25,241 nt of DNA, from the IMG/VR virus record IMGVR_UViG_3300035204_001720, positions 1 through 25,241 of that record; one strand, 5' to 3'. A program made the position numbers and the translations under genes. Positions 3,487 to 25,241 of this stretch are shown here, one piece after another (the first letter of the stretch is position 1; each line of letters begins with the position of its first letter). Origin of the DNA: a virus. The notes beneath the pieces are model-generated. The model was not told the DNA's origin. It did no database searches and saw only the letters and a list, made by a program, of their open reading frames with translations.

Positions 3487-4450
3487 AACTCTTATAGAAA
3501 ACGTAAAGCTTCATATTGACGAGATTTTACCCCAAGAAAACGAAATCACCCTAAGGGGTTGGTGCGCTTCAGATTCTTCTAAAGTTAAAAAGATAAGACT
3601 TTTCGCTGGTAAAAATTTCGCTCACAAAGGAGAATGCCAAGAAGCTAGGGAAGACGTGTATGAATATTACGAAAAAAATAAAAATTTCCTAAATTCTGGG
3701 TTTACTATTTCTGTCCCCCATAAGCTAAAAGAAGATAAGGATATTTTCTTACAAATTCTACACAAAAACAAATGGGAAAATGTTAAGAGAATAGAAGGAA
3801 GAGCTTCCTTACGTTTAAAAGAGATAAAAACTGATTTTGACATAAATAAAACCTTAGACACAAACTTAATCGTTGTTGATAATTTTTATGAAGACCCCCA
3901 CCTAATAAGAGAGTTCGCCTTATCCAGAAACTCTTTCGCTCCGCACACTGAATACCACAAGGGTCAAAGAACAGAAGAAAACTTTAGGCCAGACGGAGTA
4001 AAGGAGGTCATCAGTAAACTCTTAAACAAAAAAATAACAAATTGGGATACCCACGGAGCCAATGGAGTTTTTCAATTCTGTACGTCTGAGGACGCCTTAG
4101 TTTATCATGTGGACACTCAATCCTATGCGGCTGTAGTGTTTTTAACGCCTGACGCTCCCCCAGAATGTGGCACAACGTTCTATAGGAGTAAGGCCAATGG
4201 CCTAAGAGAGAGCCCTACCAATAAGATATCGGAACAATTAAACAAAACTAAAGAACAATTAAATTTCGAAATTTTTAAAAACGGGTTTTATGATAAAACT
4301 CAGTTTGAGACTGTAGATGTTGTCGGAAATGTATTTAATAGACTCGTCATCTGGGACGCTAAATTAATCCATGCTGCATCAGAATATTTTGGAGATAATA
4401 GGGAAAATTCCAGACTCTGGCATATGTTCTTTTTTGATGCAGAAGAGTAA
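3479..4450 (+). CDS. 2-oxoglutarate/Fe(II) oxygenase-like protein with N-terminal accessory domain
   Basis: The C-terminal two thirds look like a non-haem iron dioxygenase fold. A His210-x-Asp212 pair (YHVDTQ) is followed by distal His298 (LIHAAS) and an arginine at 312 (SRLWHMFFFD) that could bind 2-oxoglutarate. The segment VVFLTPDAPPECGTTFYRSK resembles prolyl-4-hydroxylase/DUF6445-type phage proteins. Residues 1-115 form a separate beta-rich region (EITLRGWCASDSSKVKKIRL) of the sort seen attached to glycan-modifying enzymes. The protein probably hydroxylates a sugar, amino acid or base. Its place between rmlB and a WbqC-like gene favours a role in surface or virion glycan modification. 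The substrate is unknown, and the family call rests on motif order only. Confidence 0.6.
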   Translation: MHETLIENVKLHIDEILPQENEITLRGWCASDSSKVKKIRLFAGKNFAHKGECQEAREDVYEYYEKNKNFLNSGFTISVPHKLKEDKDIFLQILHKNKWENVKRIEGRASLRLKEIKTDFDINKTLDTNLIVVDNFYEDPHLIREFALSRNSFAPHTEYHKGQRTEENFRPDGVKEVISKLLNKKITNWDTHGANGVFQFCTSEDALVYHVDTQSYAAVVFLTPDAPPECGTTFYRSKANGLRESPTNKISEQLNKTKEQLNFEIFKNGFYDKTQFETVDVVGNVFNRLVIWDAKLIHAASEYFGDNRENSRLWHMFFFDAEE

Positions 4451-5127
4451 TGAAAATTGCTATTGTCCAGCCCAACTTTTTTCCATTTAAAGCTTACTAT
4501 GACTTGGCCGGCAGAGTTGATAGGTTTATCTTTTTGGATGATACGCGCTACAACAATAAAAGCTGGGTTAACAAAACTGTCATTAATTTAAATTCTAAGA
4601 ATTATTATTTCAGAGTGCCCTTAGATCATGATCCTTCTGAGCTCGTTTTAACTAAAGACGTAAGACCTAAAAATAAAAGCTGGAAAAATAAATTCCTTAA
4701 ACTTATTAAAGTTCAATACAAGCGTTCTCCAAATTTTGATGTACTATACCCTATTTTAAAAGAAATTATAAACATACCCACAGAATGTTTCGCTCATATG
4801 TCTGCGTACAGTGTTTTTAGGCTAGCTCATAGCGTGCTGGGGGCGAAAACTCATTTTACCTTCTCTTCTATTAAATACGAAAAAGTTAAATTATCGTATC
4901 AAGATAAGATTTTTCATATATGTAAGAAAGAAAAAGCGAAGACACTATATACCTTTGCGGGGAACAGGGGGTCTTTTGACGAAAGAAAATTCACCACGGG
5001 AGGAATAGGGATAAGCTACTTTAATTCTTACTCAAGTAATTATTCCTTTATTGACGAAATTATGCATAATCATTCTTACAGAGACATACTCGAAAAAGAG
5101 TGTAATCTTTTACAAGATGAAACATGA
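4450..5127 (+). CDS. WbqC-like family protein
   Basis: This 225 aa protein opens with IVQPNFFPFKAYYDLAGRVD and then DDTRYNNKSWVNKT, matching the N-terminal signature of the WbqC family (typical form QSNYxPWKGYFDLI...DDVQYTKRDWRNRN). WbqC-like proteins sit in O-antigen and deoxysugar clusters and are thought to act in amino-sugar transfer or modification, though their biochemistry is poorly established. The start overlaps the previous stop (TAATG). The 3' end overlaps the preferred phoH start by 11 nt, so the sugar cassette and phage core genes are expressed as one unit. Confidence 0.8.
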   Translation: MKIAIVQPNFFPFKAYYDLAGRVDRFIFLDDTRYNNKSWVNKTVINLNSKNYYFRVPLDHDPSELVLTKDVRPKNKSWKNKFLKLIKVQYKRSPNFDVLYPILKEIINIPTECFAHMSAYSVFRLAHSVLGAKTHFTFSSIKYEKVKLSYQDKIFHICKKEKAKTLYTFAGNRGSFDERKFTTGGIGISYFNSYSSNYSFIDEIMHNHSYRDILEKECNLLQDET

Positions 5128-6234: not shown

Positions 6235-6248
6235 TTTATTAAGATTTA
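6221..6248. terminator. Possible bidirectional AT-rich hairpin between convergent ORFs
   Basis: A perfect 8-bp inverted repeat, TAAATCTT (6221-6228) and AAGATTTA (6241-6248), with a 12-nt loop spans the stop codons of the + gene ending at 6234 and the minus ORF ending at 6239. Its position fits a shared terminator. The stem is AT-rich and weak, and the following T run is short. Confidence 0.3.
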
Positions 6249-6430
6249 TGATAATTTTTATAATGTTTATTTGTCCAGTGATCTTCTTTGTCTAATCCAT
6301 GATTACGGATATATACCTCCGCATCGTGGGCTAGGTTGTTTATTTTTTGAAAATATGTGGCAATATCTCTGTTATTGTTTTTACAAAAAGGAAAGCTTAG
6401 GTCCATAATTTCTTTTAGCTCTTTTTTCAT
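6239..6430 (-). CDS. Possible small minus-strand hypothetical protein, 63 aa
   Basis: This is the only minus-strand ORF that does not lie opposite a convincing + gene. It fills most of the 270-nt gap between 6234 and 6505. The product is charged and aromatic (residues 36-54 include AEVYIRNHGLDKEDHW) and has the look of a soluble folded peptide rather than random translation. No good Shine-Dalgarno sequence precedes the ATG, although AT-rich promoter-like sequence lies upstream at 6431-6504. No family is recognised. It could be a small early or regulatory gene, or non-coding spacer. Confidence 0.4.
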   Translation of the reverse strand: MKKELKEIMDLSFPFCKNNNRDIATYFQKINNLAHDAEVYIRNHGLDKEDHWTNKHYKNYHKS

Positions 6431-6504: not shown

Positions 6505-6891
6505 ATGAAAACATATTGCTATAATTGTGGGGCAAAGTCAGAATTCTCCATTAGGGACAAACCTAAGTTTTGTTCAAAATGTGGAGTTTCCTTTTCGGGT
6601 GAATCGAAAGAAAAAGAGCGAGTGGGCCTCGACTCCGTGGAAGCCGAAGAAGACGAAGGTATCGTAAATATCCCCAACATAAGCGAACTTGAATATGATT
6701 TCTATGACATGAAAAAATCGAAAGAAACCATTGGTTCCTTGGTAGGGACAGGGACATCAAGCGGTCCACCCGGAAGCAATAAACCACAAAAAAATATGCC
6801 GAGTATGACTCGCGAACAAGCTATGGAAATATTCCAAAAAGAAGCCGGGTCAATAAAGCGAAGCGCTAAAAAGAAAGATGCCGAAACATGA
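6505..6891 (+). CDS. Zinc-ribbon protein, 128 aa
   Basis: The N terminus carries a classic zinc ribbon: Cys5-x2-Cys8 (CYNCG) and Cys23-x2-Cys26 (CSKCG) with 14 residues between the pairs. The rest is acidic in the middle (EAEEDEG), then Gly/Pro/Ser-rich, and ends in a basic tail (IKRSAKKKDAET). Such ribbons bind nucleic acid or RNA polymerase subunits. The gene overlaps the sigma-like gene by 14 nt, so a partner role in transcription is plausible but inferred. No enzyme domain is present. The start at 6505 lacks a Shine-Dalgarno sequence and lies close to a TATAAT box. Confidence 0.75.
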   Translation: MKTYCYNCGAKSEFSIRDKPKFCSKCGVSFSGESKEKERVGLDSVEAEEDEGIVNIPNISELEYDFYDMKKSKETIGSLVGTGTSSGPPGSNKPQKNMPSMTREQAMEIFQKEAGSIKRSAKKKDAET

Positions 6892-7585
6892 GAATAAGCC
6901 CACAAAAAAGAAACCCACGTTTGAAGAGTGCATAGGTTTTATAAATGAAGAAATTAATAAGAGGAAAGGTAAATGGAATTTAACCTCTCTTCACTGGTTG
7001 GACTATGACGATGTATCACAAATAATAAGAATACATATCCATGAGAAGTGGCATTTATACAATCCTGAAAAACCCTTAGCGCCTTGGGTCAATAGGATAA
7101 TTTCCAACCAAATAAAAAACCTCATAAGAAATAATTATGGAAACTTTAGTAGACCATGTCTAAAATGCGAAGCGGCAGAACCTAACGATTTATGCAAAAT
7201 ATACGAAAAGCAATGCAACGAATGTCCGCTTTATGCAAAGTGGGAAAAAACAAAAAAGAAAGCATATAACGTAAAAATACCACTAGCTCTAGACGACCAC
7301 GCTCATGAAGTTAGCTTTATATCTTTCGAAGATGGAGTTGATATAGAAAAATACGCACAAAACTTACACAAGGAAATGAAGCGAACTCTAAAGCCTAACG
7401 AGTGGACTGTATATGAAGGTCTATTTATAAAAAATTTAGAAGAAGATGAAGTATCTAGCATGCTTGGATTTAAATCAAACGAAAAAAACAGGAAGCCGGG
7501 ATATAAGCAAATTAAAAATTTAAGAAAAAAAATCATGGACAAGGTTAAAAAATGTCTAGAAAAAGGTAATATTGATATTTTATAA
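6878..7585 (+). CDS. Sigma-70-like RNA polymerase factor with cysteine-rich insert
   Basis: Residues ~40-88 resemble sigma region 2: DYDDVSQIIRIHIHEKWHLY, then NPEKPLAPWVNRIISNQIKN, matching the ECF pattern 'D-hh-Q-x-hhh..W-x-x-hxP-x-xPFxxWL-x-RIxxNxxxDxxR'. Residues ~170-225 resemble region 4 with a helix-turn-helix (LKPNEWTVYEGLFIKNLEED, then EVSSMLGFK). Between them lies an insert with Cys94, Cys97, Cys106, Cys113 and Cys116, a likely zinc site not found in ordinary sigma factors. The protein could direct host RNA polymerase to phage late promoters, as gp55 does in T4; that role is inference. It overlaps the zinc-ribbon gene by 14 nt and is followed 1 nt later by the next start. Confidence 0.65.
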   Translation: MPKHENKPTKKKPTFEECIGFINEEINKRKGKWNLTSLHWLDYDDVSQIIRIHIHEKWHLYNPEKPLAPWVNRIISNQIKNLIRNNYGNFSRPCLKCEAAEPNDLCKIYEKQCNECPLYAKWEKTKKKAYNVKIPLALDDHAHEVSFISFEDGVDIEKYAQNLHKEMKRTLKPNEWTVYEGLFIKNLEEDEVSSMLGFKSNEKNRKPGYKQIKNLRKKIMDKVKKCLEKGNIDIL

Positions 7586-8672: not shown

Positions 8673-9624
8673 TGTTATCGTACCAGAACCAACTTGTCAG
8701 GCTTGTCAAAAACAATTTGAAACGCACAGGCAATTACACGCTCATCTTAAAGCCCACGATTTAAGAGTTGTGGGGTATTACCAAAAATACTTTCCAAGAT
8801 ATGACTTACACGACAACAATATCATTAGATACAAAACCCTAGAACAATATTTTTCAACGGACTTTAACTCTAGAACAAACCTAAGACTTTGGCTTAAATC
8901 GATTGACAAGGAGGAAGCGGAAACTTACTGTAGGAACATCTTGTTAAAAAGAAAGAACGACAAAGGCCTTATTTATACCCCTACTCAAGTAGAGCTTAGG
9001 ACAATATTATCGCCCCCAATTCAATACTTGCGAGATATACTTGATGGATATTATAAGGTGTGCGAGGAAATGGGGTTCATAAATAAATATCAATTACCGA
9101 CAAAAATAGTTGAAGGCAAAGAATACTCAAAACCTCAATACTCCATACACGTAGATACAAGAGAGCAGATGCCCCTAAGATTTGAAGACTACCGCACTAG
9201 GTCTACAACGCTGTCTGTGGGAGATTATACTTTTAGTGAACCCAAATTAACATGCAACTGCTACATAGAAAGAAAATCTTTAGCCGACTTCATTTCTACT
9301 ATGAGCGTTAAAAATTTAAATAGATTTGAAAAAGAGATAATAAGAGCAAAAGATGAAAAAATTAATTTAATTATTTTGGTAGAAGATACTCTAGCTCACG
9401 CGGTTAGCTTCAAATATCTGCCTCATATATCGAAAAAGATAAAGGCAACACCGGAATACATATTTCACAACGTAAGAGAGTTAATACAAAAATATCCACA
9501 CATTCAATTTCTATTCGTCAGAGGAAGAAAAGAGGCGGAAAGGGTTATCAAAAAAATATTTTTTAGCGGATGTTTCTATAAGCAGGTAGACCTCCAATAC
9601 GCGTATGATATGAAAGCTTTATAA
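8665..9624 (+). CDS. C2H2 zinc finger + ERCC4-type nuclease
   Basis: The N terminus holds a canonical C2H2 finger: Cys11-x2-Cys14, Phe18, Leu24, His27-x3-His31. Residues ~158-290 form an ERCC4/XPF-type nuclease domain with VDTREQ (Asp164, Arg166, Glu167), VGDYTF (Gly186, Asp187) and the IERKSLADF signature (Glu202, Arg203, Lys204). These are the metal-binding and catalytic residues of the family, and all are present. XPF-type nucleases cut branched or flapped DNA. Next to the large terminase (1-nt overlap, TAATG), this enzyme could resolve branched concatemers before packaging, the role endonuclease VII has in T4. The activity is well supported, the packaging role is inferred. Confidence 0.85.
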   Translation: MSDVIVPEPTCQACQKQFETHRQLHAHLKAHDLRVVGYYQKYFPRYDLHDNNIIRYKTLEQYFSTDFNSRTNLRLWLKSIDKEEAETYCRNILLKRKNDKGLIYTPTQVELRTILSPPIQYLRDILDGYYKVCEEMGFINKYQLPTKIVEGKEYSKPQYSIHVDTREQMPLRFEDYRTRSTTLSVGDYTFSEPKLTCNCYIERKSLADFISTMSVKNLNRFEKEIIRAKDEKINLIILVEDTLAHAVSFKYLPHISKKIKATPEYIFHNVRELIQKYPHIQFLFVRGRKEAERVIKKIFFSGCFYKQVDLQYAYDMKAL

Positions 9625-11450
9625 TGTGGTACTGTCCTGAAAAATACGAAACAGAGCCGGAGAACATCAATGAAGAAATGATGAAAATCAAAGGCTTCAT
9701 GTCAGAAAAAGAAGCAAAGATAACTTTAGCAAAATTTCTCCACGCTAATTTGGGATTCACCACTGAATTGATATCAGGAATTAAGCTTGCACCATTCCAA
9801 GAAGTGACTCTTCGGGGAATGATGAATAGAAACTTTAGTATGTGTGTATGGGGTCGTGGCTGTGGCAAAACTTTTATAGCTTCTGTGTTTTGTTTCCTTC
9901 AATGTATATTCAACCCCGGGACAAAAATACTTGTTGCTGGCCCAACGTTTCGTACTGCAAGGTTTATATTTAGTAATTTGGAAAAGTTGGTAGAAACCAA
10001 AGGCGCGGAATTGCTAGCTCAATGCTTTGGAGCAAAAGTAAAACGCAATGACCAATTCGAATGGAGTATTAACGAAGGGACAATTACCGCAATTCCACTC
10101 AACGGCGAAAAAATTCGTGGTTTTCGAGCGAACGTACTTCTGCTGGATGAGTATCTTTTGTTACCCGAAGACCTAATTAACACGGTCCTTATGCCCTTCT
10201 TGGTTGCTCCTCAAAACATGAAGGAGCGCATAGAAATCAGAGAATTGGAAGACAAGCTTATTGAGTCGGGCCACATGAAGGAAGAAGACAGGATGGTGTT
10301 TGAAAACGATTCGAAAATGATAGCGCTGTCTTCTGCCTCTTACACTTTTGAAAATTTATACAAAACTTATAAAGATTGGGTGAACAACATTTACGATGAG
10401 ACTCCATCAGATTCTTCTTATTTTATTTCCCAGATGGGGTATGAAGCATTACCAGAACACATGATAGACCAAACCGTAATTGAAGCCGCGCAGGACGGCG
10501 GAACCTCTAACGCCTCTTTTCAGCGCGAGTACTGCGCCATGTTTACAGATGGAAGCGATAGTTATTTTAGCGCTATTAAAATGCACGCCTGCACTGTTCC
10601 TGACGGAGAAGAACCGACGACGTTAATAAAAGGCAAGTCAGATAAAAAGTATGTCGTAGGGATTGACCCCAATATGAGCGATAGTCCAAGCGCAGATTAT
10701 TTCGGTATAGCCATAATGGAGGTTGACGAAAAGAAAGAGGCCGCAACCTTAGTTCACAACTACGCGGGATTAGGAAGCTTAAACAAGCACGTGCAATATC
10801 TTTATTATGTTTTAGAAAACTTTGATCCATCTTTAATTTGCGTTGATAACGCTGGTGCAGACATGTTTATTGAAGCAGCTAACAACTCAAAGCTGTTCTT
10901 GGATAGTAGAGTTAATTTAAAAACAATAGAGTTCGACTCTAACAAGGAAGGGGTAGATTATACTAAACAAGTGAGAGATTTTAAGAGGGCGTATAATAAA
11001 GAAAATAAACAAATAGTATTTAATCAAGTATTTTCAAGTGATTGGATAAGAAAGGCCAACGAACTACTACAGGCCAATATCGATTATAAAAAAATATGGT
11101 TTAGCTCTAGAACGTCTGCGAATGGCTCGGAGTTCGATAAACAAAGTACATACAAAATTAACCTAAAACACGTAGATGAAGAAAATTTAGGAGATTTCAT
11201 AGAAACTCAAGATAATCTAGTATATCAGGTTAAAAAGCAATGTGCGTTAGTAGAAGTCAAAACAACTGCGAGAGGGACACAAACCTTCGACCTCCCGCAG
11301 CATTTAAAGCGAAACACTAGCGCAAATAGAGCCAGAAAAGATAACTATACTGCTTTACTGCTTGCTAACTGGGCGACTAAATGCTACTTTGACATGGAAA
11401 ATTACAAGCTTGATGAAGGAAGTGCGACATTTGTGCCTAGAATGGTGTAA
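9624..11450 (+). CDS. terL: Terminase large subunit (packaging ATPase and nuclease)
   Basis: This 608 aa DNA-packaging motor is of the T4 gp17-like type. Walker A is WGRGCGKT at 76-83 and Walker B with the catalytic Glu is LLLDE at 172-176, followed by a coupling segment ALSSAS near 234. The C-terminal RNase H-like nuclease begins with VVGIDPN (Asp348) and continues with ICVDNAGAD (Asp408). Length, domain order and the position directly before the portal gene all fit. The stretch ending at 11450 is followed by a 43-nt A-rich gap before portal. Its codons blend with the neighbours and no frameshift or intron is visible. Confidence 0.95.
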   Translation: MWYCPEKYETEPENINEEMMKIKGFMSEKEAKITLAKFLHANLGFTTELISGIKLAPFQEVTLRGMMNRNFSMCVWGRGCGKTFIASVFCFLQCIFNPGTKILVAGPTFRTARFIFSNLEKLVETKGAELLAQCFGAKVKRNDQFEWSINEGTITAIPLNGEKIRGFRANVLLLDEYLLLPEDLINTVLMPFLVAPQNMKERIEIRELEDKLIESGHMKEEDRMVFENDSKMIALSSASYTFENLYKTYKDWVNNIYDETPSDSSYFISQMGYEALPEHMIDQTVIEAAQDGGTSNASFQREYCAMFTDGSDSYFSAIKMHACTVPDGEEPTTLIKGKSDKKYVVGIDPNMSDSPSADYFGIAIMEVDEKKEAATLVHNYAGLGSLNKHVQYLYYVLENFDPSLICVDNAGADMFIEAANNSKLFLDSRVNLKTIEFDSNKEGVDYTKQVRDFKRAYNKENKQIVFNQVFSSDWIRKANELLQANIDYKKIWFSSRTSANGSEFDKQSTYKINLKHVDEENLGDFIETQDNLVYQVKKQCALVEVKTTARGTQTFDLPQHLKRNTSANRARKDNYTALLLANWATKCYFDMENYKLDEGSATFVPRMV

Positions 11451-11493: not shown

Positions 11494-13506
11494 ATGAGCC
11501 AAAATAAGCCAAACGAAAAAAGCTCCCCCAAGAAGCCAAGAAGAAGGACGACGAAAAAGACAGAAACGTCTGCGGAGCCCCTAATGACCTCCACCGCTTC
11601 TCATGAGTCTTTCGCTCATAGAGCGGATACTCACACCAGAAGAAACAAAGCCGGATCAATAGAAAGGACGGACAAATTCACTAATATTGAGAATGGTCTT
11701 ATTCCTTTTAAGACTTATTCAGGATCAGGACAAAGCGGAATCTCCATTAGAGATGCCGTGATTCTTTGTCAAAAAGCTTATTACAATTTCTCCGTTTTCA
11801 GAAACACCGTCGACCTTATGACGGAGTTTTCAACTAGCGAAGTCTTTTTTGAGGGGGGTAGTAAAAAATCGAGAAACTTTTTTGAATCGCTTTTCGCCAA
11901 GGTAAATATCCTAGATCTGCAAGACAGGTTCTTCAGGGAATACTATAGATCAGGAAATGTTTTCTTGTATAGATTTGATGCCAAGCTGAAACCAGCAGAT
12001 GTAAAAAAGATAACTCAGACTTTCGGGGCAAAAAGTCAAAAGGTTAAAATACCCTATAGATATGTTGTATTAAATCCAGCAGACATATCAATTGCCGGGT
12101 CTTTAAATTTTACCGAAACAAGAAAATATCACAAAGTCTTAACCGACTTTGAATTAGAAAAAATAAGAAACCCGAAAACGCCGGAAGATAAAGAAATTTA
12201 TAACGCTCTCCCGGAAGCAACTAAGAGAGCGATAAAGCAAGCTCCGCTTTCAAATTCGATTACAATAGAACTAGATGGAGAAAGGTTCTCCGCGATATTT
12301 TACAAGAAACAAGACTATGAGCCGTACGCTGTCCCCATGGGATATCCAGTGCTCGAGGACTTGAATCATAAAGCAGAACTTAAAAGAATGGATATGGCTG
12401 TAACCAGAACTGTTCAGCAAGCAATTCTTCTAGTTACCATGGGTACTGAGCCGGATAAAGGCGGCATCAATCAGGAAAACTTAATGAAAATGCAGGCTCT
12501 TTTCGAAAATCAATCTGTCGGAAGAGTCTTGATCGCGGATTATACAACTAAAGCTCAATTCGTTATCCCTCAGGTATCGGATATTCTTGATCCCAAAAAA
12601 TATGAAGTAGTTAATGCTGACATTAATGCTGGCCTTAATAATATGCTTACAGGCGTAGGTTCTAGCGGAGAAAAATTCGCAAATCAGCAAGGAAAGGTTG
12701 AGGTATTCATAGCTAGACTTAGACAAGCTAGAAAAACGTTTTTAAATGATTTTCTTCTGCCTGAAGTTAAAAGAGTCTCTAAGACGCTTGGATTCAAGAA
12801 TCACCCTGTTCCTAAGTTCGAAGAAATTTTGCTAAGAGACAACACTCAAAAATATAGAGTATATACAAGAATGGCCGAACTCGGACTGTTAACTCCAGAA
12901 GAACTTTTTCAAGCTTTGAATTCAAACAGGCTTCCAAACAAGGAAGAGTCAATGGAATCTCAAAAACAGTATCTAAACGAAAGGGATGATGGTCTTTATT
13001 TCCCGTTGGTTGGAGGTTCACCTACGGAAAACCCAGCCATGGAATCTTGGGAAGCCCCAGAGCCAAAAAACATAGTTGACCCGAACAAAGAACCGCAGAA
13101 AAGCCAAACTACCTCCCCGAATAATGGAAGACCCTCTGGAACGGACGGCGTTCCACAAGAAAGGGAAAAGGCTGCGGCGAAACAAAAATACAGCTTCGAA
13201 GAAATGAGGGTTAACATTGTTAAATCTCAAAACCTAGGAAAAAAGGTCGAAAGACAACTCAGGAAGATTCACAAAAAAACAAGACTCACCAAGGCTCAAA
13301 AACAAATTGCTCAAACCATTGGACATATAATTATTGCTAACGAAGCGCCTGATAATTGGGAAAAGTCTGTCGAAAAATATTGCAAAACGCCAGCCGACCA
13401 AAACGAAAACCAAGTAAGAGCCGTAGAGGAAATTGCGTTAGAGCATCAATTAGATACTTTCATGGCAAGCATGTTGTATCACAGTAAAATAGAGGAAAAA
13501 AAATGA
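11494..13506 (+). CDS. Portal protein
   Basis: This 670 aa protein follows TerL directly. It has portal-like features: an N-terminal basic low-complexity tail (KKPRRRTTKK), then a core with AVILCQKAYYNFSVFRNTVD and FFREYYRSGNVFLYRFD, which resembles the stem/wing region of myophage portals. A long helical region follows (LNHKAELKRMDMAVTRTVQQ). Residues ~520-565 are a Pro/Gln/Ser-rich linker, and residues 570-670 form an extra helical, lysine-rich C-terminal domain. That makes the protein longer than most gp20-like portals (~520-560 aa). The start lacks a Shine-Dalgarno sequence and follows an A-rich run. The stop overlaps the next start by 4 nt at an A8 tract. Confidence 0.85.
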   Translation: MSQNKPNEKSSPKKPRRRTTKKTETSAEPLMTSTASHESFAHRADTHTRRNKAGSIERTDKFTNIENGLIPFKTYSGSGQSGISIRDAVILCQKAYYNFSVFRNTVDLMTEFSTSEVFFEGGSKKSRNFFESLFAKVNILDLQDRFFREYYRSGNVFLYRFDAKLKPADVKKITQTFGAKSQKVKIPYRYVVLNPADISIAGSLNFTETRKYHKVLTDFELEKIRNPKTPEDKEIYNALPEATKRAIKQAPLSNSITIELDGERFSAIFYKKQDYEPYAVPMGYPVLEDLNHKAELKRMDMAVTRTVQQAILLVTMGTEPDKGGINQENLMKMQALFENQSVGRVLIADYTTKAQFVIPQVSDILDPKKYEVVNADINAGLNNMLTGVGSSGEKFANQQGKVEVFIARLRQARKTFLNDFLLPEVKRVSKTLGFKNHPVPKFEEILLRDNTQKYRVYTRMAELGLLTPEELFQALNSNRLPNKEESMESQKQYLNERDDGLYFPLVGGSPTENPAMESWEAPEPKNIVDPNKEPQKSQTTSPNNGRPSGTDGVPQEREKAAAKQKYSFEEMRVNIVKSQNLGKKVERQLRKIHKKTRLTKAQKQIAQTIGHIIIANEAPDNWEKSVEKYCKTPADQNENQVRAVEEIALEHQLDTFMASMLYHSKIEEKK

Positions 13507-15257
13507 GCTTTAGAGATACGGGGCAAAAAGATTCTGGGAATGTTATAAGTAGAGATTCTACTTATCTAAGCGCAAATGATGGCTTACTTATTCCCGCGTG
13601 TGACGCAGACAAAAGCATTGTCGTGTATGACATATTGTCTTACGGCGCTGGCACGTTAGGCACTGCTGCTGATGGTGGAGGAACTCGCCTCGGTTTTATA
13701 AATGCAGGGCACAACGAATATGGTGTCTCACTCATAGTCCCCGCTGGTCAGGGTGTATATACTAATGCTCAAAGCGAGAACATAACAATTACTTATGCTA
13801 TTGTAGATGGTCTTCCTGCCAGCCTTATAACTAACGTAAGTTCGGGAGGGGGAGGAACAACTACGACAACTACCGCCGCTGCGACGACAACTACCACCGC
13901 TGCGCCTACTAATTTAGAATTTGCATTGGCGACCTCTTCGATAGCGGAAGGAAACGCCGGAACATCTACTCATACAGTAACAGTAAATAGAACAGGTAAT
14001 ACCAATGGTACAGCTACAGTAGATTATGTTACGATTGGTATTACAACGTGGGTTGAAGATTATACTGCTGCAAGTGGAACTTTAACTTTCGCAGCAGGAG
14101 TAACTTCTCAAACCATATCCATAACAATTGCTGGAGATACCGGTAATGAAGATGACGAAACCTTTAATATCACTTTATCGAACCCAACCCAAACCGTGGG
14201 CGTAGCATCTATAACCGGAACTAATCCACACGTAGTTACGATTACAAATGACGATACCTCTACAATAGGGTTTGCTTTGGCAACCGCTTCTGTATTTGAG
14301 GCCCACGGAGCGTCCGGATATCATGATATAACAGTCACTAGGAGTGACACCAACGGTACGGCTTCAGTAGATTATGCTACGGCTGACGGCACCGCAACAG
14401 CCGGCACCGACTACACCGGAATTAGCACAACCACCTTGAATTTCGCCGACGGGCAGGCGAATGCGATCTTATCCGTATCAATTTTTGGAGATACTGACTA
14501 TGAGAATGACGAAACCTTTACGGTGACCTTGACTAACGCAACCTCACAATACGGCGCAGTAGCGTTAGGTACCAGCACTCATACAGTTACGATTACAAAT
14601 GATGATACAACGACAACTACCACCGCAGCACCAGCATCAAACGCTTGTGTCGCTCAAACTTCGGGAAACGAGTACTATTGGAGCGTAGATTCCACTTTCA
14701 CGCCGGTAGTCGGCGCTAACGCAACCCATTACAGTAGAACTCAGTATGTAAATGCTGATGGCAGCTTGTGGCTCGCGTACAACGGTACAGCAACCAGATG
14801 GAAAATCAATGATGGAGTAAACGAGGGCGGGAGTGAATGGTACGAGTCTGACAATGACGGAACTAATCCTTGGGATGTCACTTGGGCAAACGCTTACATA
14901 AGCGTTACCGAAAAGGCTAACGCTACCCATTGTTATCCAGCGGGCACATCAAACTTCTGCATAGCTGGACAAGGATACTATCCAGAATACGAAGGCACTT
15001 GGATACCATACAATACATATAACGGGAAAGCGGTATGGTGGAACCAATCCGCAAATGGCTACGAACTGTTTATGTGGTACGATTCCGGCAGCTCTGTGTG
15101 GCAAATTTATAGCGATGGGTGGGAGCCTCACGGAAACAACGGATACGCGTCAGGTTATAGTTCTAGCGATGGGGACGGAACCAATCCTTGGGATGCTGAT
15201 TGGTCTTCTGAAATTGGAAATCAAACCTTTGACAGCATAAATTCAGGGGATTGTTAA
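13503..15257 (+). CDS. Modular capsid-surface protein with two Calx-beta-like domains
   Basis: Domain order in 584 aa: residues 1-103 are a decoration-like domain homologous to the complete 90 aa protein coded at 19791. A Thr/Ala linker follows (118-135). Two Calx-beta-like domains lie at ~137-251 and ~255-368, each with the acidic GDTxxExDETF motif and ending in VTITNDD. A second Thr/Ala linker (369-377) leads to two aromatic C-terminal repeats (~385-475 and ~485-584), each with an NG...W pattern and DGTNPWD. Calx-beta domains bind calcium in other proteins, and the C-terminal repeats could bind glycans; both are inference. It is probably displayed on the head and reaches outward, as Hoc does in T4. 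It overlaps portal by 4 nt. Confidence 0.75.
   Translation: MSFRDTGQKDSGNVISRDSTYLSANDGLLIPACDADKSIVVYDILSYGAGTLGTAADGGGTRLGFINAGHNEYGVSLIVPAGQGVYTNAQSENITITYAIVDGLPASLITNVSSGGGGTTTTTTAAATTTTTAAPTNLEFALATSSIAEGNAGTSTHTVTVNRTGNTNGTATVDYVTIGITTWVEDYTAASGTLTFAAGVTSQTISITIAGDTGNEDDETFNITLSNPTQTVGVASITGTNPHVVTITNDDTSTIGFALATASVFEAHGASGYHDITVTRSDTNGTASVDYATADGTATAGTDYTGISTTTLNFADGQANAILSVSIFGDTDYENDETFTVTLTNATSQYGAVALGTSTHTVTITNDDTTTTTTAAPASNACVAQTSGNEYYWSVDSTFTPVVGANATHYSRTQYVNADGSLWLAYNGTATRWKINDGVNEGGSEWYESDNDGTNPWDVTWANAYISVTEKANATHCYPAGTSNFCIAGQGYYPEYEGTWIPYNTYNGKAVWWNQSANGYELFMWYDSGSSVWQIYSDGWEPHGNNGYASGYSSSDGDGTNPWDADWSSEIGNQTFDSINSGDC
13863..13904 (+). repeat. Tandem 21-nt linker repeat (two copies)
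   Basis: A 21-nt unit beginning ACGACAACTACC occurs twice in tandem (13863-13883, 13884-13904) with one difference. It encodes the Thr/Ala linker before the first Calx-beta-like domain. A third copy lies at 14610-14630. Confidence 0.85.
14235..14257 (+). repeat. 23-nt repeat at end of first Calx-beta domain (partner 14586-14608)
   Basis: The 23 nt coding for VTITNDDT at the end of Calx-beta domain 1 recur at 14586-14608 with a single substitution. Conservation at DNA level points to recent duplication or recombination of the domain unit. Confidence 0.8.
14610..14630 (+). repeat. Third copy of the 21-nt Thr/Ala linker repeat
   Basis: This copy matches the tandem unit at 13863-13904 closely, with differences near its 3' end. 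It again joins two protein domains (Calx-beta 2 to the C-terminal repeats). Confidence 0.8.
14856..14877 (+). repeat. 22-nt repeat coding DGTNPWD (partner 15174-15195)
   Basis: These 22 nt, coding for DGTNPWD in the first C-terminal aromatic repeat, recur at 15174-15195 with one substitution. The copies mark equivalent positions of a tandemly duplicated ~100-residue domain. Confidence 0.75.
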
Positions 15258-15274
15258 AAAAAGTGTAATAATTA
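15256..15274 (+). promoter_or_regulatory. A7-GTGTA motif with TAATAAT before the tubulin-like gene
   Basis: AAAAAAAGTGTA runs directly into TAATAATTA, ending 2 nt before the ATG at 15277. The same A7-GTGTA string occurs at 18459-18470 and a variant at 23917-23929, each in an intergenic gap. It may be a phage promoter element. No Shine-Dalgarno sequence is present. Confidence 0.35.
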
Positions 15275-15276
15275 AC

Positions 15277-16422
15277 ATGAGTGATAACGAAAAAGAAAAC
15301 AACGAAGAACAAATCAAAGCTTTTTATGACGAAAGCATTGATATCTCATTGCCTGACGATATGGTCATACCTACTCAGCCCGAAGAAGGAGATGCAAAAG
15401 CGTACGAAAACGAGGTTGAGGATGATGTAGATGTTTCTTTTAAATTTGCGTTTGTAGGGGTAGGGCAAGGTGGGTCAAGAATTGCCCAAACGTTTAAAAA
15501 GCTAGGCTATAATCGCGTAGCTGCAATCAATACCGCTCAACAAGACTTAAACTCTCTTGACCTAGAACACAAACTGTGTATCGGAGAAGGAGGAGCCGGA
15601 AAACAGCCTGAGTTAGCGAAAGAAATATTCCGAGAAAAAAAAGAAGATGTTTTGGATTTTTTGCGTTATTCCTTTGGAGAAACGGTTGACAGAATTTTTG
15701 TATGCGCTGGGGGCGGAGGAGGCTCCGGGTCAGGCATGATGGCTCCATTAACGGAAACAGCTGAAGAATTGCAAAAGATTTTAAATTCAGAATCAAAACA
15801 AGTTGGCGTTATTCTCACTTTACCAAGAAAGTCGGAAGGAGAAAAAGTTCGAATGAATGCTATGAAAGCTCTCCATGAGGCTATCAATTTAAAGAATAGA
15901 AAAATCATTTCTCCTCTCATTGTTTTAGATAACGAAAAGATTAGCCAACTATACCCCAACCTTCCAGTTGCTAAATTTTGGGATACAGCAAACTCGAGTA
16001 TAGCTGGATTGTTTCACTTGTTTAATTTGACGTCCAACAAAGACAGTAGTTATTCTTCCTTCGATAAAAACGATTACAAAACCATATTAGATTCGGGGGT
16101 TGTAGCTTTTGGGGTTTCCCCCGTTAAGAAATGGGATGATCCCGTTGCACTTTCGAGAGTTGTAAGGGATAACCTTAGGAACAGTTTACTGTCTGGCGTG
16201 ACAGATATATCCACGGGAGAAACAGCGGGGGTAATAGTTATTGGAGGGAAAGATGTGTTAGACAACCTTCCTCAGAATAATATAGATCAAGCCATTGACC
16301 AACTTAACAGGTTATTAAAACAAGGAAGCGTAATTCATAGGGGAATTTATAGCGGAGATAAACAAGGCAGCCTGATGATTTTTACGTCAATTGGAGGGCT
16401 TGCTAATCCCTCAGGAAGATAA
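15277..16422 (+). CDS. Tubulin/FtsZ-like GTPase
   Basis: This 381 aa protein has an acidic 55-residue N-terminal extension followed by a tubulin-superfamily GTPase core. The T1 loop GVGQGGS is at 61-67, AAINTAQQDL matches the FtsZ 'ANTDxQxL' segment (82-91), and the tubulin signature GGGGGSGSG is at 145-153. The T7 catalytic loop FDKNDYKTIL (262-271) lines up with FtsZ DFADVRTVM, keeping both aspartates (263 and 266). Polymerisation-coupled GTP hydrolysis is therefore plausible. Phage tubulins such as PhuZ position replicating DNA in some jumbo phages; whether this one does so is unknown. Its place between the portal/decoration and protease genes is unusual. It may alternatively be closer to TubZ, CetZ or FtsZ-like relatives. 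Confidence 0.85.
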   Translation: MSDNEKENNEEQIKAFYDESIDISLPDDMVIPTQPEEGDAKAYENEVEDDVDVSFKFAFVGVGQGGSRIAQTFKKLGYNRVAAINTAQQDLNSLDLEHKLCIGEGGAGKQPELAKEIFREKKEDVLDFLRYSFGETVDRIFVCAGGGGGSGSGMMAPLTETAEELQKILNSESKQVGVILTLPRKSEGEKVRMNAMKALHEAINLKNRKIISPLIVLDNEKISQLYPNLPVAKFWDTANSSIAGLFHLFNLTSNKDSSYSSFDKNDYKTILDSGVVAFGVSPVKKWDDPVALSRVVRDNLRNSLLSGVTDISTGETAGVIVIGGKDVLDNLPQNNIDQAIDQLNRLLKQGSVIHRGIYSGDKQGSLMIFTSIGGLANPSGR

Positions 16423-16432
16423 GGTTTAAGTT

Positions 16433-17116
16433 ATGGAGATAGACTTTTCAAATCAAATAAAGTCTTTCAATGTAGATAATATTACCTATGAAGAAACTAG
16501 GGAAGAGCTGTCAGAACAGGCAAATAAAAAATTTCAAGTTTTAAACCTAAGCTTAGAAAATACGCCCATTGTCAATCCTCCAAAAAACTCAAGCATAACT
16601 ACGAAAGAAGAGCTCGATTACATTAAATCGTTTCAGGAACAATGGGGTCCAAGCGAAAGCCTCTTAAAAAAATGTGACGATGACCCAGACGGATTGATAG
16701 TGGACTTTCATGATAAGGTTTACGGTAAAAACGGCAGAAAAGAATACGACATGGAAGCGATCATGGAAGATTTAAATATTTATGTCATGAACGTAAAATT
16801 TATATATAAGCGCGTAAGACCTTATCAGGTGTCAGAATATCACAAGGTTGAAATCAAACATAATAAACCTATGCAAAACGAGGGGACAGCTAACACACCA
16901 TCTTATCCCAGCGGGCATACTATGGCAGCATTTCTTGCTGCTAAGATTTGTGGTTTTTATTACCCAGAGTGCGAAAAAGAATTCTTAAGATTAGCCGAGA
17001 CAGTGGGTAGGTCTAGGATAAAAGAAGGTGTTCATTTTAAAAGCGATAACGAATATTCAAAATTACTTGTAGACGAAGTCGTAATGCCTGCATATCTAGA
17101 ACACATAATTAAATGA
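16433..17116 (+). CDS. PAP2-superfamily acid phosphatase-like protein
   Basis: All three PAP2 motifs are present in order. Motif 1 (K-x6-RP) is Lys122 to Arg129-Pro130. Motif 2 (PSGH) is residues 159-162 in SYPSGHTMAA. Motif 3 (SR-x5-H-x3-D) has Ser194, Arg195, His201 and Asp205. The spacing is within the family range, so phosphatase (or vanadate-haloperoxidase-like) chemistry is expected. There is no signal peptide or membrane helix, unlike lipid phosphatases, so the substrate is probably soluble. The first ~110 residues are a separate acidic region starting MEIDFSNQIK, echoed by the protein coded at 19023. It follows the tubulin-like gene by 10 nt and overlaps the next gene by 4 nt. Confidence 0.85.
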   Translation: MEIDFSNQIKSFNVDNITYEETREELSEQANKKFQVLNLSLENTPIVNPPKNSSITTKEELDYIKSFQEQWGPSESLLKKCDDDPDGLIVDFHDKVYGKNGRKEYDMEAIMEDLNIYVMNVKFIYKRVRPYQVSEYHKVEIKHNKPMQNEGTANTPSYPSGHTMAAFLAAKICGFYYPECEKEFLRLAETVGRSRIKEGVHFKSDNEYSKLLVDEVVMPAYLEHIIK

Positions 17117-20065: not shown

Positions 20066-21571
20066 ATGAAAGACTTTAAATACAAAACAATCTTTAGTTC
20101 GACTATCAGGCCTCTAGTTCCTGAAGAAAAGGACAAGTACCTAGCCTTAGCAAGCCTTGCTGACGTCGGTGACTTTATTCCTGATGTAGATACAGACGAA
20201 AATGTAGACCTGCTCCCCATAGCCTTTAATGCCTGTGTGGTAAACAGGGTAAACAAAAACGGCGATGTCATCGACACGGAAACTGCGGCAAAAATTTACG
20301 AAAATTTTATAAACAAGCCCATTAACATTGAGCACAATAGAGACAAAGTGGTTGGAGTTATTCTTGCTGCTGGATTTAGTGAATTCGGAACAGATTCTTC
20401 CCTATCAAAAGATGACATTTCCCAAACTGTATCCCCGTTCAATATTACATTAGGCGGCGTTTTCTGGAAAGTGGTAAATAACGACTTAGCAGGCCTAATT
20501 GAGGAGGCAAGTGACCCTACAAGTGACAACTACATGTCTATTTCTGCTAGTTGGGAGCTGGGATTTTCAGACTTCAATTTGATTTTATTAAAAGACGACG
20601 ATAAAAACATCGAAAACGGTGAGATAATCGCTGAAGAGAAGAAGATTGAAGAGCTCCAACACTATCTCAAGGCCTTGGGAGGAGGAGAGGATATCGGAGA
20701 TAACACCAAGGTATACAGGCAAGTTATTGGTGAAGTAGTTCCACTCGGCATAGGTCTAACAGAGAATCCGGCAGCGGACGTAGAAGGCGTGGCAACCGAG
20801 ACTACAATAACGGCTAGTGACGAAAAAGAAAAAGAAAAAGAAATTTTAGTAAAAGATAGTGAAAGTCTTAATAATATTTCACAAGAACCCAAAATTGATG
20901 TAATTTTAAGGGAGAATATCATGAAAATAAAATCAGTAAAAGACATTACGGATGACTTGTTAAAAGAGGTCTCCGCTTCTGTTGTGGCTGACTTTATCGA
21001 GGAAGAGATGAGAGAAGCTTCTGAAAAGTTCGTGGAAGAAAAGGGACAACTCGAGCAAGAGCTCAAGTCTTCCCAAGAAGCCCACGAAGCTATTTCAAAA
21101 GAACACGAAGAGCTCAAGACTAAGCTTGATTCCGTTGAGAAGGCTTTATCATCCCTCGAAGAAGAGAAGACACAAAGAGAGGCTGAAGCCAAATTCAACG
21201 AGCGCATGGCGTTATTGGATGAAGAGTACGAATTGAGCGATGAAGATCGCGAAGTTCTCGCTTCTGACATTAAAGACATGAATAACGACGATTTTGAATC
21301 TTATCAAAAGAAGATTAACGTTCTTCTTAAAGCAAAGTCGAAAGCCGCTATCGAAGCCCAAAAGGCTGAGGAAGCTAAACAAGCGGAAGAGGCCAAAGCC
21401 TCAGAGCAAATTGAACAAACCGAGGAAAAGGAAGAAACGGTTGTTGAAACTGCGGTTGACGAAGCCGACAAAGAAGACACTGAGGTTCCTAACTCTATCC
21501 AAGCGGAAGAAGAAACTCTTGTTGAAAAATACAAGAAGGCCTTTGACTTGGATCAATTCGAATTAAATTAA
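20066..21571 (+). CDS. Prohead protease with C-terminal scaffold domain
   Basis: Residues 1-~240 resemble phage prohead proteases. FINKPINIEHNRDKVVGVI supplies a candidate catalytic His90, and NYMSISASWELG supplies candidate Ser158 or Ser160, the order expected of herpesvirus-protease-like S77/S78 enzymes. GEVVPLGIGLTENPAADV closes the domain. Residues ~265-285 are a charged linker (EKEKEKE). Residues 286-501 form a highly charged coiled coil followed by an Ala/Glu/Gln-rich segment and the C-terminal helix EKYKKAFDLDQFEL, typical of scaffolds that end with a capsid-binding helix. A strong internal start at 20921 would produce the scaffold alone. The gene sits just before the head and capsid genes, as in many phages. 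Confidence 0.8.
   Translation: MKDFKYKTIFSSTIRPLVPEEKDKYLALASLADVGDFIPDVDTDENVDLLPIAFNACVVNRVNKNGDVIDTETAAKIYENFINKPINIEHNRDKVVGVILAAGFSEFGTDSSLSKDDISQTVSPFNITLGGVFWKVVNNDLAGLIEEASDPTSDNYMSISASWELGFSDFNLILLKDDDKNIENGEIIAEEKKIEELQHYLKALGGGEDIGDNTKVYRQVIGEVVPLGIGLTENPAADVEGVATETTITASDEKEKEKEILVKDSESLNNISQEPKIDVILRENIMKIKSVKDITDDLLKEVSASVVADFIEEEMREASEKFVEEKGQLEQELKSSQEAHEAISKEHEELKTKLDSVEKALSSLEEEKTQREAEAKFNERMALLDEEYELSDEDREVLASDIKDMNNDDFESYQKKINVLLKAKSKAAIEAQKAEEAKQAEEAKASEQIEQTEEKEETVVETAVDEADKEDTEVPNSIQAEEETLVEKYKKAFDLDQFELN
20908..20915 (+). promoter_or_regulatory. Internal ribosome binding site for nested scaffold
   Basis: AAGGGAGA lies inside the protease-scaffold gene, ending 5 nt before an in-frame ATG at 20921. 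It is a stronger Shine-Dalgarno match than that of the full-length gene, whose start at 20066 has none obvious. Confidence 0.65.
20921..21571 (+). CDS. Nested scaffold protein (in-frame internal start)
   Basis: An in-frame ATG at 20921 begins MKIKSVKDITDDLLKEVSAS exactly where the protease domain and linker end and the coiled coil starts. The preceding AAGGGAGA has good spacing, so a 216 aa scaffold could be made separately from the protease-scaffold fusion. This is the same logic as lambda C/Nu3. The product is acidic and helical, with long Glu/Lys/Gln heptad-like segments and a conserved-looking C-terminal helix. Separate expression is inferred from sequence and would give the excess of scaffold over protease that head assembly needs. 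Confidence 0.6.
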   Translation: MKIKSVKDITDDLLKEVSASVVADFIEEEMREASEKFVEEKGQLEQELKSSQEAHEAISKEHEELKTKLDSVEKALSSLEEEKTQREAEAKFNERMALLDEEYELSDEDREVLASDIKDMNNDDFESYQKKINVLLKAKSKAAIEAQKAEEAKQAEEAKASEQIEQTEEKEETVVETAVDEADKEDTEVPNSIQAEEETLVEKYKKAFDLDQFELN

Positions 21572-22260: not shown

Positions 22261-23415
22261 ATGAAGTTAAAATTAAAAAACACTCCAGAACAAGTAGAAC
22301 TTGTTAAAGCCATTGGCTCTAGGGACGCATCAGTTTCCCGTGAAGCTTCCGAGGCTTTTGCAGCTTTTCTTGGACCTGTAATTCAAAAAGTTTTGCTGAC
22401 GGCTGGAACCGCAAGTCAAATTTTTGTTGATTCAGCCTTTGATGAAGACGACAGCCCGAGTTACCCCCTCGACCTACACTACGGTGAAGGCGAAGGCTAT
22501 GTAACCGTTTGGAGTCAGCACATGGCTGGTGGATTACCGACCTCGCAAGTCGAGGGAATGAAAGAAGTCAAGATCGCAACGTATCGTTTAGACTCAGCAG
22601 TGAGTTTTAACAAGCGTTATGCTCGCAGAGCACGCCTTGACGTAATTAGCAAAGCCATCGAAAGAATGGCTAACGAAGTGCTTATTAAGCAAGAGAGAAA
22701 TGCTTGGGCAGTTATTCTTAAGGCTCTTTCCGAGGCTTACACTAACAGCTTGAACCATTTCGTCGACGCCAGAACCAATGGTTTTGACTTGGACGCGCTT
22801 AACAAAGCAATGACTCTTAACACGCGAATCAATGAGTCCTTCTCGGGACACACGCCTATCGCACCTTACTCAACCGGAATTACTGACCTTTATGTCAGCC
22901 CCGAGGTTAAGGAAAAGATTCGCTCGTTCGCTTATAACCCGATCTATCAATCGAACACTAATGATGTTCTTCCGGATAACATCCGTGAGGGCATCTATAA
23001 TGCTGCTGGAATGCAAAGCATCTATGGCGTTAATATTAATGAGATGGTTGAACTTGGTGCAGGCAAGAAGTATCTTAGCTTGTTTGAAGCTGTAGCTCCT
23101 GCTACGGAAGCTGCAAACGCAAGCACAGATATGTTCTCTCTGCTTAACATCGACAACGGAGCAGATGACTCCGCTGGCGCTAACTGGGCAACGGGAACTC
23201 AAGACCTTGCTATCGGTGTAGACAACTCTCGCGGAGCATTTATCCGCCCGGTTGCACGCCAGCATGATAGCGGTGGAGACGGAACGTTTAGAGCTCTTCC
23301 TGATGAGCAATTCAACATGTACGGAAGTCGCGTTGAAAAGACAGGTTTCTACGGATTCCTCGAAGAGGGTCGGATTTGTATCGACGCTCGTGCGATCATG
23401 GGAGTAATTCTTTAA
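22261..23415 (+). CDS. Major capsid protein (probable HK97 fold)
   Basis: This 384 aa protein has a strong Shine-Dalgarno sequence (AAGGAG, about 10 nt before the ATG) and is followed by an efficient rho-independent terminator, both expected of the most abundant structural gene. The N terminus is helical (residues 1-50). The body has ATYRLDSAVSFNKRYARRAR, then RMANEVLIKQERNAWAVILK, resembling the E-loop/spine-helix transition of HK97-type capsid proteins in T4-like phages. C-terminal segments include GAFIRPVARQHDSGG and GFYGFLEEGRICIDARAIMG. Position after protease, scaffold and decoration genes agrees. Sequence-level family assignment is not certain. Confidence 0.85.
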   Translation: MKLKLKNTPEQVELVKAIGSRDASVSREASEAFAAFLGPVIQKVLLTAGTASQIFVDSAFDEDDSPSYPLDLHYGEGEGYVTVWSQHMAGGLPTSQVEGMKEVKIATYRLDSAVSFNKRYARRARLDVISKAIERMANEVLIKQERNAWAVILKALSEAYTNSLNHFVDARTNGFDLDALNKAMTLNTRINESFSGHTPIAPYSTGITDLYVSPEVKEKIRSFAYNPIYQSNTNDVLPDNIREGIYNAAGMQSIYGVNINEMVELGAGKKYLSLFEAVAPATEAANASTDMFSLLNIDNGADDSAGANWATGTQDLAIGVDNSRGAFIRPVARQHDSGGDGTFRALPDEQFNMYGSRVEKTGFYGFLEEGRICIDARAIMGVIL

Positions 23416-24377: not shown

Positions 24378-25241
24378 ATGGCGACCAACTACCAAGTTTG
24401 TATAACAAATTTAAATACTGGGGAAGTTATTCACTGCGCAGGCAGCAGTAGCTCTTCAAGTGGTAGTTCGTCATCCAGCTCTTCTTCGTCAAGCGTTGTA
24501 GGATCCGGTAATCAAGGGCACCAAGGGCATCAGGGAGAAGGTGGTGGGGGAAGCGGTAGCGGTAGCGGCCCCACAGAAGTAACTCTAGCTATTACTGAAA
24601 ACAGTAATGCTTTTTACGTCGACGGAACAAGAAACGCCAACATAGTTCTCTCTGTTAATACTAGGTATAAATTTGATTTATCTGATTTGAGTCTTTATGG
24701 CCATGTATTTCAATTATCCACAACGGTAGATGGAATATGGAATAATGGTGATACATATGATGGCGATTTTGATGACGAAATAGAAAAAGTAGGCACAGAA
24801 GGAACACCCGGGGCTTACCTGCTATGGGACATTCCTAATATAGTAAACAATATAATGTATTACTATTGCACTCAGCATTCTGGCATGGGTGGAAAACTTA
24901 GAATTGCTGGCGACCAAGGCCACCAAGGAATTGAAGGGAGCCAAGGTTATCAGGGAACGATACTTGTTGGTTACCAAGGGCAAGCTGGGGCTTTTTCCGC
25001 GCAGGGATATCAAGGATATCAGGGCTACCAAGGGGTCGAAGGAAATCAAGGCTATCAGGGAGAACAAGGAGACCAAGGAAGTCAAGGTTATCAAGCGACG
25101 ATTACTTTAGGATATCAAGGACAATTAGGAAGTCAAGGTTATCAAGGAGCCTCAGGAACAAATGGTTCTGACGGAAATCAAGGTTATCAAGGGATCGGAG
25201 GTATTGAAGGAAACCAAGGTTATCAAGGGGTTGGGGGAACA
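24378..25241 (+). CDS. Collagen-like fibre protein with cupredoxin-like domain (3' end outside window)
   Basis: The ORF is open to the right edge with 288 codons visible. The N terminus MATNYQVCITNLNTGEVIHC is followed by a long serine run and a Gly/Gln/His linker (GNQGHQGHQG). Residues ~65-176 resemble the plastocyanin/cupredoxin-like fold found in marine phage fibres: YKFDLSDLSLYGHVF (His109), and a C-terminal YYYCTQHSGMGG with Cys164, His167 and Met170 spaced like type 1 copper ligands. From ~178 to the edge, collagen-type G-x-y triplets are dominated by GYQ, GNQ and GxQ, nearly without proline. This looks like a virion fibre or tail fibre. The receptor-binding end lies beyond the window. 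Confidence 0.8.
   Translation, partial: MATNYQVCITNLNTGEVIHCAGSSSSSSGSSSSSSSSSSVVGSGNQGHQGHQGEGGGGSGSGSGPTEVTLAITENSNAFYVDGTRNANIVLSVNTRYKFDLSDLSLYGHVFQLSTTVDGIWNNGDTYDGDFDDEIEKVGTEGTPGAYLLWDIPNIVNNIMYYYCTQHSGMGGKLRIAGDQGHQGIEGSQGYQGTILVGYQGQAGAFSAQGYQGYQGYQGVEGNQGYQGEQGDQGSQGYQATITLGYQGQLGSQGYQGASGTNGSDGNQGYQGIGGIEGNQGYQGVGGT
24909..25241 (+). repeat. Collagen-like G-x-Q triplet repeat region
   Basis: The DNA repeats AGGNTATCAAGG-type units coding for GYQG, GNQG and GSQG triplets with short interruptions (TILVGYQGQAGAFSA; ATITLG). It continues past the window end. The interruptions may mark trimer hinges. Confidence 0.85.

Follow-up and report, generated by a model that had tools for sequence, protein, structure and literature searches.

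A tubulin-superfamily GTPase encoded beside the packaging and head genes of uncultured phages

The 25,241-nt stretch of viral DNA analyzed here (the window; IMG/VR record IMGVR_UViG_3300035204_001720) encodes, among packaging and head genes, a GTPase of the tubulin/FtsZ superfamily, and by sequence phylogeny the phage protein represents a third phage tubulin lineage beside PhuZ and TubZ. The reading that we prefer, to which we give a probability of about 0.5, is that the protein would be expressed late and build cytomotive filaments, which would bring phage DNA or proheads into position for packaging. The gene is referred to below as ftsZ; its coordinates and those of the other features of the window are collected in Table 1.

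Results

Table 1. Features of the window discussed in the text
Feature	Position	Strand	Basis or remark
Protein with weak sigma-factor similarity, conserved in the cluster	6878..7585	+	phrog_1740, E 0.0045
Terminase large subunit (TerL)	9624..11450	+	phrog_2, 2.5e-22
Portal protein	11494..13506	+	Fold search; SPbeta YonE by family profile, E 0.003
Calx-beta-domain protein between portal and ftsZ	13503..15257	+	PF03160, 1.7e-30
GTGTAAT promoter-like element, 7 nt before ftsZ ATG	15263..15269	+	Recurs before other genes of the clade
Tubulin/FtsZ-superfamily GTPase gene (ftsZ)	15277..16422	+	381 aa; profile, PDB sequence and structure matches
Acidic, mostly predicted-disordered N-terminal tail (residues ~1-52)	15277..15432	+	Composition; AlphaFold2
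Conserved linear tail motif DISLPDDMVIP (residues 22-32)	15340..15372	+	Conserved across phage homologues
T1 nucleotide loop GVGQGGSR (residues 61-68)	15457..15480	+	Alignment of phage homologues and E. coli FtsZ
T4 tubulin signature GGGGGSGSG (residues 145-153)	15709..15735	+	Alignment of phage homologues and E. coli FtsZ
T7 (synergy) loop SFDKND, D263/D266	16057..16074	+	E. coli FtsZ D209/D212 by alignment
PAP2-like phosphatase, optional neighbour	16433..17116	+	PF01569, 2.7e-11
Probable prohead protease/scaffold fusion	20066..21571	+	Inferred from position before MCP and conserved residues
Probable major capsid protein (MCP)	22261..23415	+	PF25209, 1.9e-4, under cut-off

The protein has the tubulin fold and is not FtsZ

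An initial annotation, made from the sequence alone, had described the open reading frame as tubulin/FtsZ-like, and this is confirmed by a match to the Pfam Tubulin family (PF00091; 1.3e-13, 52 bits against a cut-off of 33) and by the predicted fold. The NCBIfam ftsZ equivalog model also matches (7.6e-20), yet at only 71.5 of the 295.2 bits required, and because of this shortfall we classify the protein, on sequence grounds, as a member of the tubulin superfamily but not as FtsZ. FtsZ_C (PF12327) is undetected in the window protein and in three phage relatives (the E. coli FtsZ control gave 2.9e-37). The chain stops six residues past the last strand, so that there is no FtsZ-type C-terminal linker with its conserved C-terminal peptide; the short C-terminal helix of most relatives is missing from the window subclade. 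PF13809 (Tubulin_2 / FtsZl1) gives a partial match of 26.3 bits where 27 are needed, and the window protein has no C-terminal extension of the coiled-coil type of that family. Searched against PDB sequences, the window protein finds plasmid TubZ/RepX best (9.6e-17) and FtsZ next; with a family profile these matches improve to 4e-24 and 7e-18, respectively.

An AlphaFold2 model built from 38 homologues has a pLDDT of 87.3 and a pTM of 0.84, with pLDDT below 50 at residues 1-24 and 34-41. The top matches of this model in a PDB structure search are exclusively tubulin/FtsZ proteins: TubZ 4ei7 is best (Z 35.4, 2.3 A over 321 residues, 22% identity), followed by CetZ2 (Z 34.1, 24% identity) and FtsZ (Z about 30-31). 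Structure prediction and profile search had been proposed in the initial annotation as the means of overturning its assignment; they returned the tubulin fold and no non-tubulin family. The structural similarity to archaeal CetZ is strong, but the context and host are different, and the sequence tree described below held no protein labelled CetZ. In the viral structure library BFVD the best match is A0A6J5RW92, annotated as "FtsZ Cell division GTPase" of an uncultured Caudovirales phage, and PhuZ proteins come far lower. At 27% identity and a TM-score of 0.79 by query length, A0A6J5RW92 is probably a member or near relative of the phage family; we found it as an annotation only, with no description in the papers searched. 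The initial view that phage tubulins are the PhuZ proteins of nucleus-forming jumbo phages is therefore incomplete on two counts, since it leaves out both this annotated protein and the TubZ of phage c-st (3v3t/4xcq), which is a second kind.

GTP-binding residues are kept throughout the phage family

The T1 loop, the GGGGGSGSG signature and the T7 aspartates, which had been reported as intact, are all as described in our alignments. Residues G61, G63, Q64, G65, G66 and R68 of T1 and G148, G149, G151 and G153 of T4 do not vary among the 38 phage homologues aligned, and D263 and D266 are invariant in 40/40 phage and 13/13 cellular homologues. The counterparts of E. coli FtsZ N43, N165 and N186 and of most T1/T3/T4 glycines are invariant or nearly so in the 40 phage proteins, and the catalytic residues are kept even in phage proteins that are about 48% identical to the query. 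The position of FtsZ N207 is occupied by Ser/Ala/Thr. The gene has been conserved over the long term. We infer with good reason from the sequence that the window protein would bind GTP and hydrolyze it upon polymerization; since the residues for catalysis are intact, a working filament is favored.

An acidic tail carries one conserved peptide

The acidity of the N-terminal extension, given initially as 55 residues, holds: over about 52 residues there are 19 D/E and 3 K/R. The tail is variable in sequence apart from one short motif, a feature that the initial annotation lacked. Its commonest form in the family is D-[IV]-x-[LIMV]-P-[DEN]-I-P-x-P, which occurs across many lineages, and D22 and P32 of the window protein are invariant in 38/38 aligned phage sequences. 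A predicted-disordered tail with one fixed peptide is usually a docking site. We also asked whether a prohead protease might cleave the motif at a T4-type site (L/I-x-E) and dropped this idea because the window motif contains no such sequence.

The phage proteins form a clade next to bacterial chromosomal proteins

After removal of long branches, the tree comprised 40 phage proteins, nine chromosomal proteins, TubZ and FtsZ. The phage proteins form a single clade (support 98/97), whose sister is formed by the nine chromosomal proteins, from Planctomycetota (Phycisphaerae, Sedimentisphaerales) and Omnitrophota (100/100); phage and cellular proteins together exclude TubZ and FtsZ (99/99). In a wider tree an Anaerolineae homologue falls within the combined group, on a long branch. 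The FtsZ-like proteins of the Phycisphaerae, Omnitrophota and Anaerolineae MAGs (L169-L177) share 36-42% identity and the motifs with the phage family but differ in being chromosomal, as are those of L199 and L200, and in that most of them carry K/R-rich, histone-H1-like tails of 60-200 residues, which are confined to the cellular branch. Their genes sit among housekeeping-type genes with no recognized phage genes nearby, and viral contigs scanned with an alignment of the cellular type yielded nothing.

In four of nine MAGs, which may be incomplete, the cellular homologue is the sole tubulin-superfamily match. Loss of ftsZ has been reported for the Phycisphaerae (PMC12283558). The cellular family is rare in the Planctomycetota (4/246 sampled genomes) and is therefore no general replacement of FtsZ in that phylum. 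Two Planctomycetota genomes encode a second paralogue (L196:758-1813 and L197:1105-2145) that has lost the GGGTGTG loop and kept the T7 aspartates; from its sequence this loop-less form is possibly a filament-capping subunit. Another Planctomycetota protein (L198:352-2079) combines an FHA domain with a weak tubulin-domain match. A keyword search of two published superfamily surveys found no mention of phages (PMC2875224, PMC9871819).

ftsZ recurs beside packaging genes in two arrangements

Searching IMG/VR with the window protein and a family alignment gave 69 loci, with one ftsZ copy per contig. The order terL-portal-(insert)-ftsZ-...-protease-MCP is found in dozens of contigs, and at most loci ftsZ comes directly after portal, the two genes either overlapping by 8 nt or lying 1-6 nt apart. 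Eight loci of a second lineage have the order terL-ftsZ-portal, and the two of these that were placed in the tree have an ftsZ from a different subclade. Because the two arrangements are separate, contact of ftsZ with packaging genes has recurred. Family members are also present away from this portal type: L057/L058 have ftsZ near a terminase beside apparent replication genes, and in other records it follows a lambda J-like tail gene (L060), lies together with a baseplate protein and a DNA polymerase on a 211-kb contig (L053), or is found between RecA-like and DnaB-like genes whose names were read by eye (L208, L209).

A scan of IMG/VR with the portal found at least 597 related stretches, from which 79 new loci were kept; ftsZ is present in 16 of the 79, and many have none in the DNA around the locus. 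In 12 records without ftsZ beside portal there is none anywhere else, as far as the contigs reach. Taken at face value, the portal tree requires six or more changes in the presence of ftsZ; if well-supported branches alone are counted, it requires at least two. Since many close portal relatives are without ftsZ, at least near the portal, head assembly as such can proceed without the gene.

About 50,000 GenBank phage records contained no recognizable family member. Two weak matches labelled as phage, MT839183 and MT837522 (L183, L184), were rejected as bacterial ftsZ loci; an FtsA-like gene is upstream of one and an IF-3-like gene downstream of the other (ORFs read by eye). One portal match (L048:7998-9992) contains an in-frame TAG, which may be amber recoding or a sequence error. 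A description of a phage tubulin in a head-gene setting was not found in the literature searched, which included few subscription papers and no bioRxiv preprints.

The neighborhood in the window

The initial annotation had placed the gene between portal/decoration and protease genes. The portal stands, by fold search: the gene has no family match and its predicted fold is of low confidence (pLDDT 59), yet the best 50 matches are all portals. The supposed decoration gene encodes instead the Calx-beta-domain protein, an insert present in some relatives only. The probable protease is supported by invariant residues (H90, S160/S162) and by the conserved order before the MCP, but profile searches gave no match. 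Support for the MCP is weak, with a phrog_1650 match in one member, and PDB profile searches with protease and MCP gave nothing useful. Among relatives the PAP2-like phosphatase was detected in L004 and L005 only, and the sigma-like protein is 77-80% identical in close relatives. PADLOC found no defence match in ftsZ or its neighbors.

Three further observations concern the rest of the window. A conserved 63-aa ORF (MKKELKEIMDLSFPF...) at 6239-6430 on the minus strand has a GTGTAAT element upstream and relatives in L004-L006. A collagen-like protein with GYQG/GxQG repeats (24378-25241) continues past the window end. Beside the head module, positions 61-5127 hold RmlA-, RmlB- and RmlD-like sugar-nucleotide genes and glycosyltransferase-like, 2OG-oxygenase-like and WbqC-like genes, all read by eye.

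A promoter-like element is common to ftsZ and structural genes

The sequence GTGTAAT lies 7 nt before the ftsZ ATG in L003, L008, L065 and L060 as it does in the window. It also precedes many portal, PhoH, lipoprotein and capsid-region genes in the clade, at distances of 7-23 nt, and it occurs again in the window at 5100 and 17905. Over 19 loci, 38 of 56 occurrences fall upstream of an ORF at a distance of 40 nt or less, which ranks GTGTAAT first among the 210 permutations of its letters (mean of the others, 1.4). From its sequence and placement the element looks like a phage-specific promoter, and because it is common to both, ftsZ would belong to the same regulon as the structural genes. With GTGTAAT only 7 nt before some start codons, some transcripts may be leaderless. 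A scan for sigma-70 promoters gave chance numbers only.

Discussion

The mechanism that we envisage is a filament that acts on phage DNA and proheads. The phage GTPase would polymerize with GTP in a head-to-tail manner, each active site being completed by the T7 loop of the adjoining subunit, and it would be made late, from a common phage promoter, together with portal and capsid proteins. The dynamic filaments would move or position replicated phage DNA and/or proheads and so make packaging efficient. The D-[IV]-x-x-P-x-I-P-x-P peptide of the acidic tail would dock a partner, which might be the portal, the terminase, the prohead or a DNA-bound factor, in a manner that we liken to the C-terminal peptide of FtsZ. 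A role in DNA handling is suggested because ftsZ adjoins packaging genes in two arrangements and replication genes elsewhere, and because the cellular branch carries tails of a DNA-binding type; the K/R-rich, histone-like composition of those tails suggests an association with DNA within the family. Counting against a filament at packaging, some phage backbones have ftsZ away from the head genes, the gene is missing near many close portal relatives, the window subclade is without the short C-terminal helix of most relatives, and the histone-like tails occur in the cellular branch only. A more specific version, which we put forward only tentatively, is a tubulin dedicated to packaging, whose filaments would be made together with the portal, docked by the peptide to portal, terminase or proheads, and would unite genomes and proheads without a phage nucleus, with an ancestry common to the histone-tailed and possibly DNA-associated FtsZ-like proteins.

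The initial annotation had offered interference with host FtsZ beside the organization of capsids or DNA. The phage protein might coassemble with or poison host FtsZ, or sequester its partners through the N-terminal peptide, so that the cell stays large for late phage production. The two proteins have the fold, GTP-binding loops and T7 aspartates in common, and the DIPxP of many tail motifs bears what we take to be a loose resemblance to the core of the FtsZ C-terminal peptide. However, identity to FtsZ is about 20-24%, FtsZ_C was not detected, a poison needs no catalytic residues and all are kept, and the surroundings of ftsZ are late head genes, while inhibitors of host division are as a rule made early by phages. 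We regard interference as unlikely, and because of the low identity and the undetected FtsZ_C the evidence agrees better with a role in organizing DNA or capsids. That the protein is instead a part of the prohead, as a scaffold/core or portal-vertex protein, would be in keeping with its tight coupling to portal and with T4, in which core genes 67 and 68 occupy the same portal-protease interval; but the gene occurs outside head modules too, many relatives of the same portal type are without it beside the portal, and the GTPase residues are fully conserved, so that we consider a prohead component distinctly unlikely.

The known filament systems of phages and plasmids provide two further explanations. 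A role in TubZ-type partition, with segregation of a plasmid-like prophage, would account for TubZ being both the closest solved structure (4ei7, 2xka) and the best PDB sequence match, and the TubZ-like_C cut-off is reached by one phage and one cellular relative. But most plasmid tubZ genes that we compared have a gene of 95-115 aa directly upstream, and here that place is taken by portal, Calx-beta or TerL and not by any TubR-sized gene; repeats around ftsZ are Calx-beta-internal or short two-copy matches, with no iteron-like, centromere-type cluster. The window ftsZ also differs in its lytic head/packaging operon, its acidic N-terminal tail and its separate clade, and partition is in our judgment very unlikely. 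PhuZ, the spindle tubulin of the Chimalliviridae, is likewise phage-encoded, positioning of DNA or capsids is proposed for both, and a similar function may apply. Sequence similarity, however, is barely detectable: the PhuZ PHROG is touched by 4/38 members (best E 2.5e-4), the window protein not among them, and the family profile does not match phiKZ or 201phi2-1; in 201phi2-1 the PhuZ gene is away from the annotated head genes. Seven contigs of 81-211 kb, possibly incomplete, contained no chimallin homologue (phiKZ control, 5e-138), and a spindle protein of a nucleus-forming phage is an explanation to which we attach hardly any weight. The phage protein is thus assigned to neither FtsZ nor TubZ, because the defining features for which we looked were not found, and an assignment to PhuZ lacks support; a resemblance to the three would be, at most, in how it works.

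The phage tubulins known so far are mainly PhuZ, from nucleus-forming jumbo phages, and TubZ, from plasmid-like prophages. The family described here is a separate tubulin lineage and a regular constituent of the packaging/head module across a large group of uncultured phages in which no nucleus genes were detected. The cellular sister group offers a starting point for work on bacteria said to be without FtsZ. For the phages, our findings suggest that cytomotive filaments are more widespread in infection than has been recognized, and that they may act directly on virion assembly.
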